Source of the DNA: Chloroflexota bacterium
Lineage (GTDB): Bacteria; Chloroflexota; Anaerolineae; Anaerolineales; Anaerolineaceae
Reading direction: 5' to 3'
Length of the DNA stretch: 64,000 nt
Assembly (NCBI GenBank): GCA_012798455.1
Contig: JAAZNC010000004.1
Coordinates: 1 to 64,000, forward strand
Part shown: piece by piece, positions 29,359-35,794 of the stretch
Numbering within the stretch: the first letter of the stretch is position 1
Layout: each line of letters begins with the position of its first letter
Notes under the pieces: model-generated
Database searches by the model: none
What the model was told of the DNA's origin: nothing
What the model saw: only the letters and a program-made list of their open reading frames with translations
Program-made: the position numbers and the translations under genes

Positions 29359-29496
29359 ATCTCGGTCTAAATGAAATCATCCTAAAACTGAAGAATAGCA
29401 TAATTTTTTTAAAAAGTCAAAATTTTAGAACTTTTGTTCCCATATTGCAATAGTTTGACCACCTTCCCTTCCTATGGTAAGATAGCCTTCAATTCA
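29359..29496. other. AT-rich region upstream of SAM riboswitch
   Basis: The stretch is AT-rich and contains no supported ORF. It separates the MBL-fold gene from the methionine operon and holds the promoter 29455-29483. No further regulator site was recognised. Confidence 0.5.
29455..29483 (+). promoter_or_regulatory. Methionine operon promoter
   Basis: TTGACC (-35) and TAAGAT (-10) are separated by exactly 17 bp. A transcript would start near 29490, a few bases before the P1 helix of the SAM-I aptamer. Confidence 0.75.
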
Positions 29497-29605
29497 GCTC
29501 ATCCAGAGAGGTGGAGGGACCGGCCCTGCGAAACCTCGGCAACCAAAATACATGGTGCCAATTCCGGCAGAATCCGTTCGGCGGATATTCTGGAAGATGA
29601 GAGAG
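29497..29605 (+). ncRNA. SAM-I (S-box) riboswitch aptamer
   Basis: The sequence has the S-box hallmarks in order: P1 arm CTCATC, 'CCAGAGAGGTGGAGGGA', 'CGGCCCTGCGAAACCTCGGCAACC', 'TGGTGCCAATTCCGGCAGAA' and the returning P1 arm GATGAGAG. The K-turn, the pseudoknot segment and the P2/P3 conserved bases can be placed by eye. The returning P1 strand GATGAGAG can alternatively pair with TCTCATT at 29620-29626, the 5' arm of the terminator, which is the expected SAM-dependent switch. Binding SAM should favour termination. It precedes a methionine synthase operon, a typical S-box target. Confidence 0.95.
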
Positions 29606-29616
29606 AATACCAGCAG

Positions 29617-29645
29617 ACCTCTCATTCCAGGGAGGTTTTTTCTTT
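29617..29645 (+). terminator. Riboswitch expression-platform terminator
   Basis: ACCTCTC and GGGAGGT form a 7-bp stem with one G-T wobble around ATTCCA, followed by TTTTTTCTTTC. Its 5' arm can also pair with the aptamer P1 strand, giving mutually exclusive terminator/antiterminator forms. The start codon of the first operon gene lies 21 nt further on. Confidence 0.85.
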
Positions 29646-29665
29646 CTGGAAGAAAGTGAGTTTTT

Positions 29666-32272
29666 TTGAAGAAATTCGATTATCTTGAAGCACTCGCGCA
29701 ATCCGTGCTCGTTTTTGACGGAGCCATGGGTACCAATCTACAGCAATTGAATCTGCAAGCCACCGATTTTGGTGGTGAACGCCAGTTCGGCTGCAACGAC
29801 GTGTTATGCCTCACCAAACCCACAGCAGTGGAACAGGTGCATCGTTCATTTCTGGAGGTGGGGGTGGACGTGATCGAAACCAACACCTTCCGCTCCAATC
29901 GCCTGACATTACAAGAGTTCGGCCTTCAAGACAAGGTATACGAGATCAATAAAGCTGCTGCAATCCTTGCCAAACGGCTGGCACAAACTTACAGCACTAC
30001 AAATCATCAACGCTTTGTAGCTGGCTCCATCGGTCCGAGCGGGAAGATCCTCTCCATCGATGATGCACAATCGCAACAGGTCAGTTTTCAAAAAATCATG
30101 GCTGTGATCAAGGAACAGGCATTGGCATTACTGGAAGGCGGGGTTGATCTGCTGCTATTGGAAACACAGCAGGATCTACTGGAGGTAAAAGCCGCCGTGC
30201 TGGGCATCCAGCAGGCTTTTCATGAATCTGGCATCCAGGTGCCGTTGCAGACACAGGTTACCATGGATGTGCACAATCGCACACTTTTCGGCAGCGACAT
30301 CGAAGCGGTGTCTGCCATTTTGGAACCGCTCGCCATCCATGTGCTGGGATTGAACTGTTCCACCGGACCGGATGAAATGGAAGCCCCACTGCATTTTCTG
30401 GGCGAAAACAGCGGATTGCCGGTTTCCTGCCTGCCCAACGCGGGCATGCCGGAGATGCAGGGGCAGAATGTCATCTACCCACTGCTACCCGAGCATTTTG
30501 CAGAACGTTTAACTGAATATGTAGAAAAATACCGATTGGCGGCGGTGGGCGGCTGCTGCGGCACTACCCCGCGGCACCTTGAATTGCTGGTAAACAGTGT
30601 CCATGGACACCCGGCACCCCAGCCAACTGCTTCACGGGCAAATTTCCTCAGTTCTCCCATCCATGCTCGTGAAATGAACCAGACACCTCCGCCTTTTATC
30701 ATCGGGGAACGCCTGAACACCCAGGGCAGCCGCAATTTCAAACAGTTGATGCTCACGCAAGATTTCGGGCAGGCAGAAGCGCTGGCACGCCGGCAGATAG
30801 CCGATGGCGCGCACGGGCTGGACCTGTGCACCGCGCTAACCGAGAATGAGCTCGAAAAAGAGAACCTGGTGACCCTCATCCGCCGCATCAGCCATAGTGT
30901 GGATGCACCGCTGATCATCGATTCTACCGACCTGCACGTGATGGAAGCCGCACTGCAAGCCACCCCGGGACGTTGCCTGATCAACTCTACCAATTTCGAG
31001 AGTGGTGAAGAAAAAGCGCGGAGCGTATTCAAACTGGCAAAACAATACGGAGCAGCCGTGATGGTACTGACCATCGACGAAAACGGCATGGCAAAAAGCA
31101 GTGCTCACAAGAACCGGATCGTGGAACGCGCCTACCATCTGGCAGTAGACCAGATCGGTCTGGCACCTCCATCGCTGGTGTTCGACCCGCTAACCTTCTC
31201 CCTTGCCAGCGGTGATCCCGACACGCTCGATTCTGCCATGCAAACACTCGACAGCCTGCGCTGGATCCAACGGCACTACCCAGATTGCCATACTTCACTG
31301 GGCATCAGCAATATTTCTTTCGGATTTTCCAAAGCAGCGCGCAAGATATTGAACAGTGTGTTCCTTTATCACGCCCTGCAAGCCGGGCTGGATATGGCGA
31401 TCTTGAACGCTGCCGAGGTGCTGCCCTATCAGGCTATCGCCAAGCAGGAAAAGCAAGCTGCCGAAGCACTGCTCTTCAACCAATCAGAGCATGCTCTGAC
31501 AGATTTTATCCGGACATTCGAAAACCAAACACGAGAAGAAGCCAGCGAAGCGTATGCCAGCGCGCAACTGGCTGGGATGGCACCCGGGAAACGCATCCAA
31601 TGGCGCATTCTGAACCGGGAGCGCGATGAGATCGAAAAAGATATCGAAGACTTCATCCGGCAAGCAGCGCCTGTTTTCAACCCTCACCAGGCAGCACTCG
31701 CATTACTAAATGAATTCCTACTGCCCGCCATGAAGGAAGTGGGAGAACAGTTCAGCCAAGGGGAGATCATCCTGCCCTTCGTGCTGCAATCCTCCGAGAT
31801 CATGCGTGCTGCTACTGTCAAATTAGAGGAATTTATCCAAAAAAACGACCGCACCAGGCGCGGCACCATCCTGCTCGCCACCGTATATGGTGATGTGCAC
31901 GATATCGGTAAGAACCTGGTGAAAACCATCCTGGAAAATAACGGATTTGAAGTGATCGACCTCGGCAAGCAAGTGCCTGCCGATCAGATCGTGGAACAGG
32001 CAACCCAACTACAAGTATCCGCTATCGGGTTGAGCGCACTGTTGGTGAACACCAGCCAGCAAATGCCACAGGTGGTACAGAAACTGCGCCAGCAGCACAG
32101 CACCATCCCGGTCATGATCGGCGGTGCAGCGGTCAATCAGGCATTTGCCGAGCGCATCGTCAAATTGGGAGAACAGGAAGCTTATGCAGGGGGAGTATTC
32201 TACTGCCGTGATGCGTTCGACGCGCTGGCAGTGCTGGACAAGTTCGCGCATGAAAATGGAGACAGAGTATGA
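29666..32272 (+). CDS. metH: Cobalamin-dependent methionine synthase, catalytic part
   Basis: MetH transfers the methyl group of 5-methyl-THF to homocysteine via cobalamin. The 868-residue protein has an Hcy-binding domain (about 1-300; 'DGAMGTN', 'LNCSTGP', 'GGCCGTTP' with the zinc cysteines), a pterin-binding domain (about 330-600; 'IGERLNTQGSR', 'DSTDLHVMEAAL', 'GISNISFG'), then the B12 cap and Rossmann domain, with 'DVHDIGKNLV' near 743 for the cobalt-ligating His. The AdoMet-binding reactivation domain that ends full-length MetH (about 1,220 residues) is absent and is encoded by the next gene. The start is a TTG; an in-frame stop at 29657 excludes anything upstream. It is controlled by a SAM-I riboswitch. 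Confidence 0.93.
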   Translation: MKKFDYLEALAQSVLVFDGAMGTNLQQLNLQATDFGGERQFGCNDVLCLTKPTAVEQVHRSFLEVGVDVIETNTFRSNRLTLQEFGLQDKVYEINKAAAILAKRLAQTYSTTNHQRFVAGSIGPSGKILSIDDAQSQQVSFQKIMAVIKEQALALLEGGVDLLLLETQQDLLEVKAAVLGIQQAFHESGIQVPLQTQVTMDVHNRTLFGSDIEAVSAILEPLAIHVLGLNCSTGPDEMEAPLHFLGENSGLPVSCLPNAGMPEMQGQNVIYPLLPEHFAERLTEYVEKYRLAAVGGCCGTTPRHLELLVNSVHGHPAPQPTASRANFLSSPIHAREMNQTPPPFIIGERLNTQGSRNFKQLMLTQDFGQAEALARRQIADGAHGLDLCTALTENELEKENLVTLIRRISHSVDAPLIIDSTDLHVMEAALQATPGRCLINSTNFESGEEKARSVFKLAKQYGAAVMVLTIDENGMAKSSAHKNRIVERAYHLAVDQIGLAPPSLVFDPLTFSLASGDPDTLDSAMQTLDSLRWIQRHYPDCHTSLGISNISFGFSKAARKILNSVFLYHALQAGLDMAILNAAEVLPYQAIAKQEKQAAEALLFNQSEHALTDFIRTFENQTREEASEAYASAQLAGMAPGKRIQWRILNRERDEIEKDIEDFIRQAAPVFNPHQAALALLNEFLLPAMKEVGEQFSQGEIILPFVLQSSEIMRAATVKLEEFIQKNDRTRRGTILLATVYGDVHDIGKNLVKTILENNGFEVIDLGKQVPADQIVEQATQLQVSAIGLSALLVNTSQQMPQVVQKLRQQHSTIPVMIGGAAVNQAFAERIVKLGEQEAYAGGVFYCRDAFDALAVLDKFAHENGDRV

Positions 32273-33048
32273 GCGCTAATCCTTACAGCCCAACATTGGG
32301 AGCCCAAATCATCCCCTCCATTGCACTGGATGACCTGTTACCGTATCTCAATCATAAGGCGCTCTTCCGTATTTCGTGGGGAGCTACCAAAGCCAGCGGT
32401 GCACGCTGGGAAGAGATCCAACGCAGTTACGAAAAAAGGCTGGAGGAGATGTTGCAAAAGCTGCGCAGCGATGCATGGTTGCAACCGCGCGCCGGATACG
32501 GGCACTGGTATGCCGCTTCCGAAGGCAACAGCCTCCTGGTCTTTCAGCCCGAGCACCCTGGCGAGATCGCAGCGCGTTTCGATCTGCCGCGCCAGATGCA
32601 GGGAGAGAAGCTGTGCCTAGCAGATTATCTGCCCTCCCATTCCTCCGGTAACCCTGCCCTGCTGTCATTTCAGATCGTCACGGTGGGCAAACAAGCCAGC
32701 GAGCGCACCAATGCCCTTTTTACAAAAGGGGATTACGCGGAAGGCTATTTCGTACACGGACTGGCGGTACAGTTCGCCGAAGCGACAGCCGATTTCGTTC
32801 ACCAGCGCATCCGTGGCGAGTTGGGACTGAAGAAGAACCAGGGCAGACGCTATTCGTGGGGTTACGAACCCATTCCCCATCTTGCCCAACATGCTACCCT
32901 CTTCGAACTCATCCCGGCACGCGAAGAATTGGGGATGGACCTGACCTCCGCTTATCAATTGATCCCAGAGCAATCCACAGCTGCGATCGTGATCCATCAC
33001 GAAGATGCACGCTATTTTCGTATTGACGAGAAAAGGACTGACCAATGA
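32269..33048 (+). CDS. Separate MetH reactivation (AdoMet-binding) domain protein
   Basis: A 259-residue protein matching the C-terminal reactivation domain of MetH, which binds AdoMet to reductively methylate oxidised Cob(II)alamin. Recognisable elements are 'ALFRISWGATKASGARW', 'GYFVHGLAVQFAEATADFVHQRIRGELGL', 'GRRYSWGYEPIPHLAQHATLFELI' and 'LIPEQSTAAIVIHHEDARYF'. The usual C-terminal 'RYSPGYP'-like motif appears as 'RYSWGYE'. Its ATG overlaps the MetH stop by 4 bp (ATGA), so translation is coupled and a two-part complex is likely. Stand-alone versions are known in some bacteria. Confidence 0.88.
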   Translation: MSANPYSPTLGAQIIPSIALDDLLPYLNHKALFRISWGATKASGARWEEIQRSYEKRLEEMLQKLRSDAWLQPRAGYGHWYAASEGNSLLVFQPEHPGEIAARFDLPRQMQGEKLCLADYLPSHSSGNPALLSFQIVTVGKQASERTNALFTKGDYAEGYFVHGLAVQFAEATADFVHQRIRGELGLKKNQGRRYSWGYEPIPHLAQHATLFELIPAREELGMDLTSAYQLIPEQSTAAIVIHHEDARYFRIDEKRTDQ

Positions 33049-34913
33049 AAAGAGAAGTTTTCATAAAAAAATTATGCAGTGGCAAACCACTGGTAGCCGA
33101 TGGCGCCATGGGCACGCTGTTGCACGAACGCGGAGTAAGCTTCGAAAACTGCTTCGACGAACTGAATCTGACCAACCCCGCCCTGGTCGGTTCCGTGCAT
33201 CAGGAATACATCCGTGCCGGAGCCGAGATCATCCTCACCAACACCTTCGGTGCCAATCGTTATAAACTGGAACGCTGCGGGCTGGAAGAACTGCTGGATG
33301 AGATCAACCAGACCGGAGTGGATCTGGCACGCCGTACCATCAGCGCTGCCTTCAAAGAGAATGTGATGATCGCCGGAGATGTCGGACCGCTGGGAGTGCG
33401 CCTTGCACCCTTCGGGCGGGTACAAGTGGAACAGGCACGCGAGGTTTTCAGAGAACAGATCCAATCATTACACAGCGCCAACTGCGACCTGATCGTGATC
33501 GAAACCATGACCGATCTATATGAGATCCGCGAAGCCATTCTGGCTGCCCGCGAAGTAGATGAAGATATCCCGCTGGTAGCATCGATGACCTTCACGCGCG
33601 ATGATCGCACACTTTTAGGGGACGACCCGCAAAAGGTGGCATCCAAGCTGTTCGCTTACGGGGCAGATGTGATCGGCATCAACTGCTCCGGCGGGCCCAA
33701 CCAGTTACTACGCATCTTGAAGAAAATGAAAAAAGAGATCCCGGATAGTGTGTTCTGGGTCAAACCAAACGCAGGGTGGCCGGAACAAGTATCTGGCAGG
33801 ATCTTCTATCCCGCTTCGGCAGAATACTTCGGAGAATATGCGCTGGCATTCTGGCAGGCGGGAGCGCGCGTGATCGGCGGCTGCTGCGGTACCACTCCAG
33901 CCCACATCCAATCCATCCGCCAAGCGATCGACAGCCATTCCGTGCAGAATATCACCAACGGTATCACGCTGGAGATCAGTGAAGAAGAAATCATCGAAGA
34001 AGAGATCAGTGAACCGACCCGTTTTGCCAAGAAACTGGCTGCCGGAGATTTTGTCTTTTCAGTGGAAATGCAACCCCCACGCGGATTGGCGACCAAAAAG
34101 ATCATCGCCGGCGCAAGCCTGCTGGTTGATTCTGGTGCAGATGCCATCAACGTTGCCGACAGCCCCATGGCACGCATGCGTATGAGCCCATGGGCGGTAT
34201 GCAATCTGATTCAAGACAAAGTGAATGTCGAGACAATCTTGCACTTTCCCACGCGCGGGCGCAATCTGCTGCGCGTACAGGGTGACCTGCTGGCAGCGCA
34301 TGCCCTGGGGGTGCGCAATGTGTTCGTGATCATGGGTGACCCCACTGCCATCGGGGATTACCCTGAAGCCATGGATAATTTCGACCTGGCTCCCTCCGGA
34401 CTGGTGAAGCTGATCAAGCAGCGCTTCAACCTCGGCATCGACCAAGCCGGTTCGGATATCGGGCAACCCACCAGCTTCTTCGTGGGTTGTGCGTTGAACT
34501 TGCAGCCCAACGTGCCGCAACGCGAATGGGAGATATTGAAACGCAAGATCAACAACGGGGCTGATTTCGTCATCACTCAACCGGTATTTGAAGCCAAAAA
34601 CATCCCGCGCTTCCGACAGGCTTTCAAGGATTTCTACGAAGAATTGAAAATCCCGCTCATCGCAGGCATCTTGCCGCTAGTGAGCGCGCGCCATGCTGCC
34701 TTTCTGCATCAGGAAGTACCGGGTATTTCCATCCCCGACCCCATCCAGCAACGCATGCGCATTGCCGAAGATAATGGCAGTGGTCCGCAGGAAGGTATGC
34801 GCATCGCCAGTGAATTGATCCGCCAGGTAAAAAACCTGGCTCAGGGAGCCTACCTGACACCTTCTTTCGGGCACTACGATTATGTGGCGGAGATCATCGA
34901 CAATACCCGATGA
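33045..34913 (+). CDS. Bifunctional homocysteine S-methyltransferase/methylene-THF reductase
   Basis: A 622-residue fusion of an N-terminal Hcy methyltransferase (about 1-300; 'DGAMGTLLHERG', 'GINCSGGPN', 'GGCCGTTP') and a C-terminal MetF-like methylenetetrahydrofolate reductase (about 320-622; 'FSVEMQPPRG', 'ADSPMARMRM', 'VFVIMGDPTAIGDYP', 'FVITQPVFE'). This is the YitJ-type architecture, also often S-box controlled. It would make 5-methyl-THF and may transfer methyl groups to homocysteine from another donor. The two C-terminal linker Glu-rich stretches ('EEIIEEEISE') separate the domains. It starts with an ATGA overlap on the upstream gene's stop, completing a three-gene unit. Confidence 0.93.
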   Translation: MKREVFIKKLCSGKPLVADGAMGTLLHERGVSFENCFDELNLTNPALVGSVHQEYIRAGAEIILTNTFGANRYKLERCGLEELLDEINQTGVDLARRTISAAFKENVMIAGDVGPLGVRLAPFGRVQVEQAREVFREQIQSLHSANCDLIVIETMTDLYEIREAILAAREVDEDIPLVASMTFTRDDRTLLGDDPQKVASKLFAYGADVIGINCSGGPNQLLRILKKMKKEIPDSVFWVKPNAGWPEQVSGRIFYPASAEYFGEYALAFWQAGARVIGGCCGTTPAHIQSIRQAIDSHSVQNITNGITLEISEEEIIEEEISEPTRFAKKLAAGDFVFSVEMQPPRGLATKKIIAGASLLVDSGADAINVADSPMARMRMSPWAVCNLIQDKVNVETILHFPTRGRNLLRVQGDLLAAHALGVRNVFVIMGDPTAIGDYPEAMDNFDLAPSGLVKLIKQRFNLGIDQAGSDIGQPTSFFVGCALNLQPNVPQREWEILKRKINNGADFVITQPVFEAKNIPRFRQAFKDFYEELKIPLIAGILPLVSARHAAFLHQEVPGISIPDPIQQRMRIAEDNGSGPQEGMRIASELIRQVKNLAQGAYLTPSFGHYDYVAEIIDNTR

Positions 34914-34956: not shown

Positions 34957-34987
34957 CAAAATCCAGCCTCCGGGCTGGATTTCTTAC
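34957..34987 (+). terminator. Terminator after methionine operon
   Basis: AAATCCAGCC and GGCTGGATTT pair perfectly over 10 bp around TCCG, followed by CTTACGTT. It lies 45 bp past the fusion gene stop and before coaX. Confidence 0.8.
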
Positions 34988-35023: not shown

Positions 35024-35794
35024 ATGCTCCTGATCATAGACCTTGGAAACACCAATCTTGTATTGGGATTGTATGAAGGCAGCAACCTGACCCATCATTG
35101 GCGCCTTTCCAGCGATTACGCGCGCATGCCGGACGAATACGGCATTCAATTTCGCGACCTGTTGGATCACCAAAAAATAAAGATCGACCAGATCGAGGGC
35201 ATCTGCCTTTCTTCGGTGGTGCCGCCCCTGACTGAGCGCGTGCTGGATGCCTGCCAGCGCTACCTGGAGCAAAGCCCACTGCTGGTCACTTCTGACCTGA
35301 ATTTGAACATCCAGATCCAATACGAAGATCCAAGGACGGTCGGAGCTGACCGCCTGGCAGATGCAGTAGAAGTGCAACGCACCTACGGAGGACCAGCCTG
35401 CATCATCGATTTTGGCACCGCCACCACCTTCAATGCCCTATCGATTAAAGGGGAATACTTGGGTGGCTCTATCATGCCCGGGGTACAGGTAGCCGCTGAT
35501 GCACTGGTGCAGCGCACTGCCAAGCTGCCTGCCGTTTCGCTAGAAACACCTCCTTCGGTGATCGGCAGCAACACCAGCGACGCCATCCGTGCCGGGTTGA
35601 TCTACGGTTATGTCAGCCTGGTGGAAGGCATGATCGAACGCTACCGGCAGATCTTGGGAAAGTCCATGAAAGTGATCGGCACCGGTGGTTTGGTGAGCCT
35701 GATCAGCCAGCACACCACTGCCATCAGCATTGTAGAGCCCTGGCTCACGCTGAACGGACTGCAGTATATCTGGGAGATGAACAAGCATGACTGA
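35024..35794 (+). CDS. coaX: Type III pantothenate kinase
   Basis: A 256-residue CoaX-family enzyme phosphorylating pantothenate, the first step of coenzyme A synthesis. It has the ASKHA-fold phosphate-1 motif 'DLGNTNLVLG', 'GADRLADAVE', 'IDFGTATTF' and 'GLIYGYVSLVEG'. The ATG has GAGGG six bases upstream. The stop overlaps the coaBC start by 8 bp, giving a two-step CoA operon. CoaX enzymes differ from CoaA/CoaW in K+ dependence and resistance to feedback by CoA. Confidence 0.95.
   Translation: MLLIIDLGNTNLVLGLYEGSNLTHHWRLSSDYARMPDEYGIQFRDLLDHQKIKIDQIEGICLSSVVPPLTERVLDACQRYLEQSPLLVTSDLNLNIQIQYEDPRTVGADRLADAVEVQRTYGGPACIIDFGTATTFNALSIKGEYLGGSIMPGVQVAADALVQRTAKLPAVSLETPPSVIGSNTSDAIRAGLIYGYVSLVEGMIERYRQILGKSMKVIGTGGLVSLISQHTTAISIVEPWLTLNGLQYIWEMNKHD

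Follow-up and report, generated by a model that had tools for sequence, protein, structure and literature searches.

A family-wide SAM-I riboswitch unit before a methionine operon, with a two-piece methionine synthase, in Chloroflexota

The operon and its promoter region

The window, the whole stretch of 64,000 nucleotides analysed here, comes from a Chloroflexota metagenome bin of 2.68 Mb, probably from a bacterium of Anaerolineae type. This genome carries SAM-I twice, and the other copy (L033, G000:C84:19384-19504) lies upstream of metK. RF00162 was the only Rfam family above its gathering threshold within the window, and matched the plus strand at 29496-29603 over the full model (1-108) with 82.6 bits (gathering 44.4; E 5.7e-18), so that the S-box aptamer claimed in the initial annotation was borne out by the covariance search. 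The aptamer begins 12 nt beyond the 3′ end of a sigma-70-type promoter-like site, TTGACC-17-TAAGAT (29455-29483, plus strand), with an extended -10 (TGG before TAAGAT). This site had been called a canonical promoter; the sequence is present as described and is kept within the genus (in L035 and L036, with the version TTATGATAAGAT in L038), and extended -10 sites recur 5′ of the aptamer in relatives, but sites of this pattern, counted alone, occur at chance level (5 found against 4.4 expected).

Downstream lie three genes on the plus strand (29666-32272, 32269-33048 and 33045-34913), joined by ATGA overlaps as originally described. The first, with a TTG start that is kept in four genus members (the window and three relatives), encodes an 868-aa MetH catalytic core carrying the homocysteine (PF02574), pterin (PF00809) and B12 cap and B12-binding (PF02607, PF02310) modules, without an activation domain. 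The product of the second, 259 aa, matches PF02965 and carries the R-x-x-x-G-Y motif (RYSWGY); by its sequence it is the reactivation domain of MetH, which binds AdoMet, in the form of a separate protein; this identity was overlooked in the initial annotation. The third gene encodes a 622-aa YitJ-type bifunctional homocysteine S-methyltransferase / methylenetetrahydrofolate reductase (PF02574 + PF02219), which matches NF006396 at full length with 662.4 bits (cut-off 453) and shows no notable difference from that family. The description of a three-gene methionine operon therefore holds as to the pathway, but the first two genes together make up one methionine synthase rather than separate enzymes, and the predicted methylenetetrahydrofolate reductase proves to be fused with a second homocysteine methyltransferase. 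The catalytic motifs are kept throughout MetH, as read in alignments to Thermus MetH, Thermotoga MetH and E. coli 1MSK: the zinc cysteines (NCS, GGCCGT), the B12 histidine (GDVHDIGK) and the AdoMet RxxxGY.

Beyond the operon, coaX (type III pantothenate kinase; 35024-35794 in the window) starts 110 nt past the yitJ-type gene, with a hairpin at 34958-34983 between the two. In 31 of 70 loci a codirectional coaX comes next after yitJ, the gap often being 11-40 nt, and CoA synthesis may share the SAM-controlled transcript in some genera.

The predicted attenuation platform

An intrinsic terminator, ACCUCUC-AUUCCA-GGGAGGU followed by a U6 run, lies at 29617-29641 (plus strand); the window has a single copy of its 20-nt hairpin. 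The 3′ strand of P1, GAUGAGAG (29596-29603), can form 8 pairs with CUCUCAUU (29619-29626) in the 5′ arm of this terminator, giving a candidate antiterminator that spans 29596-29626 on the plus strand; the pairing between P1 and the terminator arm that the initial annotation proposed is thus available. Such pairing is the usual mutually exclusive arrangement. A terminator stands 3′ of the aptamer in 63 of the 64 family leaders, and across these 63 the duplex of the P1 3′ strand and the terminator arm averages -9.33 kcal/mol with its own partner and a weaker -8.75 kcal/mol (sd 0.18; 0 of 500 shuffles as good) with shuffled ones, a comparison uncorrected for the relatedness of the leaders. Furthermore, some leaders end P1 in GAGGC and carry GCCUC in the terminator arm, replacing GAGAG and CUCUC, as expected if this pairing matters.

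With SAM left out of the model, folds constrained to the antiterminator reach -52.4 kcal/mol against -46.7 kcal/mol for aptamer plus terminator, an advantage of 5.7 kcal/mol. Left unconstrained, 29490-29648 folds at -55.6 kcal/mol with the terminator and without the antiterminator, and the minimum fold of a longer leader differs from this one, so that thermodynamic folding leaves the switch undecided. The terminator scan also returned a second hairpin at about 29621-29660, followed by U7 and overlapping the terminator; this candidate was discarded, being absent from the L036 and L038 leaders.

The model that we propose for this leader is one of premature termination. Bound SAM would stabilize P1, leaving the terminator free to form and transcription to halt before metH; when SAM is absent, the P1 3′ strand would pair instead with the terminator's 5′ arm, letting the polymerase read through. 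A mainly translational switch, in which the SAM-bound structure hides the metH ribosome-binding site and the hairpin is incidental, has precedents among SAM-I switches, such as that of the Xanthomonas met operon (PMC7270179). We consider it improbable here, since the hairpin and U run sit between aptamer and start codon in all but one of the 64 leaders, and since the metH start of the window lies 25 nt beyond the U run, clear of both P1 and terminator; transcription attenuation, moreover, may be over-represented in Chloroflexi (Barrick and Breaker, PMC2258182).

Distribution and related systems

The aptamer is close to universal in the family of the window, with RF00162 found in 137 of 147 genomes, and is frequent in the phylum (202 of 300 genomes sampled phylum-wide). 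Eighty family regions around the activation domain were retrieved. Among 75 metH loci whose 5′ side is intact, counting the window, 64 have the aptamer directly 5′ of metH; a yitJ-type gene follows metH in most family loci. The unit is therefore real and ordinary, a standard SAM riboswitch before methionine genes that is common to nearly all relatives, and the suggestion that its occurrence outside the Firmicutes with such genes was worth recording in itself loses its force, the more so as SAM riboswitches are known from the Firmicutes and from species in eight further phyla, and SAM-regulated genes of Chloroflexi are mentioned too (PMC3766115). Our search of the literature for SAM riboswitch, Chloroflexi and metH together found nothing specific. 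What is gained is one further lineage for a well-known riboswitch regulon, with a leader, terminator and gene order stable enough across the family to be useful for annotation.

The closest likeness is to the Bacillus subtilis yitJ leader (SAM-I/S-box), which shares the aptamer class, the P1-based antiterminator, the terminator and the control of a YitJ-type gene, and from which the present unit differs in having metH as its first gene and a Chloroflexota host.

One genus of the family (g10, G037-G050) stands apart, in that most members have SAM-I without a match to the MetH activation protein of the window; the sole weak match is in G038, where PF02965 served as an additional query. These genomes may rely on a different reactivation route or on a different methionine synthase.

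A methionine synthase in two pieces

The unusual point of the locus is that the gene for B12-dependent methionine synthase is cut in two within the genus, as known from Thermotoga. All MetH modules (homocysteine, pterin, B12 cap/B12 and activation) are present and distributed over two ORFs with their order kept, the core covering TIGR02082 positions 2-861 and the second gene 912-1182. Neither passes as MetH in a single polypeptide, the core scoring 848.7 bits and the second gene 148 bits against a cut-off of 1010.85, and we accordingly describe the pair as a split MetH, which departs from the full-length TIGR02082 protein in comprising two polypeptides and in missing the linker between the B12 and activation modules. 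In nearly all family genomes the activation domain is part of a fused MetH, encoded in an open frame of some 1180 aa. All five genomes of the window's genus instead have it in a separate frame (262-287 aa), each with a 1-4 nt stop/start overlap (ATGA, GTGA or TAATG) at the junction with the core; the reactivation proteins of the other four genomes are 65-88% identical to that of the window.

As fused MetH is the rule among relatives and the two frames at the metH junction differ by a single base (-1), the break might be a frameshift introduced by sequencing or assembly in one bin, the true gene being fused and about 1180 aa long, or a programmed frameshift might make the fusion. Either is scarcely credible given that all five genus genomes are split, each with a well-placed start and a purine-rich site upstream, and that the split forms have lost the linker of roughly 45-50 aa that joins the B12 and activation modules in fused MetH. 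The recurrence in five genomes led us to reject an assembly error, and a programmed -1 frameshift was rejected because the metH/activation junctions of the five genomes share no slippery heptamer and each has its own start codon. Short activation ORFs in G475, G505, G661 and G691 were set aside as contig-edge cuts rather than splits.

A genuine fission is also what the phylogeny supports. In a tree of core and activation domain that included the four genus members having both MetH pieces, these form a clade with support 1.0, nested inside the fused MetHs and with the fused L039 as sister, which makes the fission derived and stable in this genus. The arrangement, with PF02965 on a separate protein adjoining the core gene, is that of a Thermotoga-type split, for which a free-standing PF02965 protein is biochemically established; in Thermotoga maritima, Huang et al. 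2007 reportedly described a methionine synthase, TM0268/TM0269, with a separate reactivation-domain protein, so that core and reactivation domain likewise occupy separate adjacent genes. To PDB 1J6R (214 aa) of this Thermotoga system, the second gene has only a weak match (E 2.6e-5), against about 50% identity to its own fused relatives, which indicates that the split arose separately from that in Thermotoga.

Taken together, the reading that SAM-I acts by premature termination on an operon for the final step in making methionine, and that this operon encodes a two-piece MetH and a YitJ-type protein, is one that we hold with high confidence, as it best explains the RF00162 score, the 64 of 75 loci, the 63 of 64 terminators, the pairing test, the antiterminator fold, the metK copy and the domains, with the genus-wide split and the nested clade counted in favour of the two-piece MetH. 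The synthase would be made as two polypeptides, probably by translational coupling of the overlapping genes, with the reactivation domain acting in trans; the YitJ-type protein would supply methyl-THF and may itself methylate homocysteine. New here are the family-wide conservation of the unit and the lineage-specific fission of MetH. The latter supplies several methionine synthases that are naturally in two pieces and have closely related fused counterparts, in which the docking of the reactivation domain in trans can be studied.

A second split was observed in another family of the order (G209; L116, G209:C8, 911-4546), where the core stops at an in-frame TAA at about 3659, past which a spacer leads to the activation ORF without a change of frame; it is independent of the split in the genus of the window. 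That the detached reactivation protein also serves other corrinoid methyltransferases in the cell is a highly doubtful proposal, which, if true, would explain why the domain has been freed at least twice, in the genus of the window and in G209. The split MetH of G209, too, is found 3′ of a SAM-I riboswitch.
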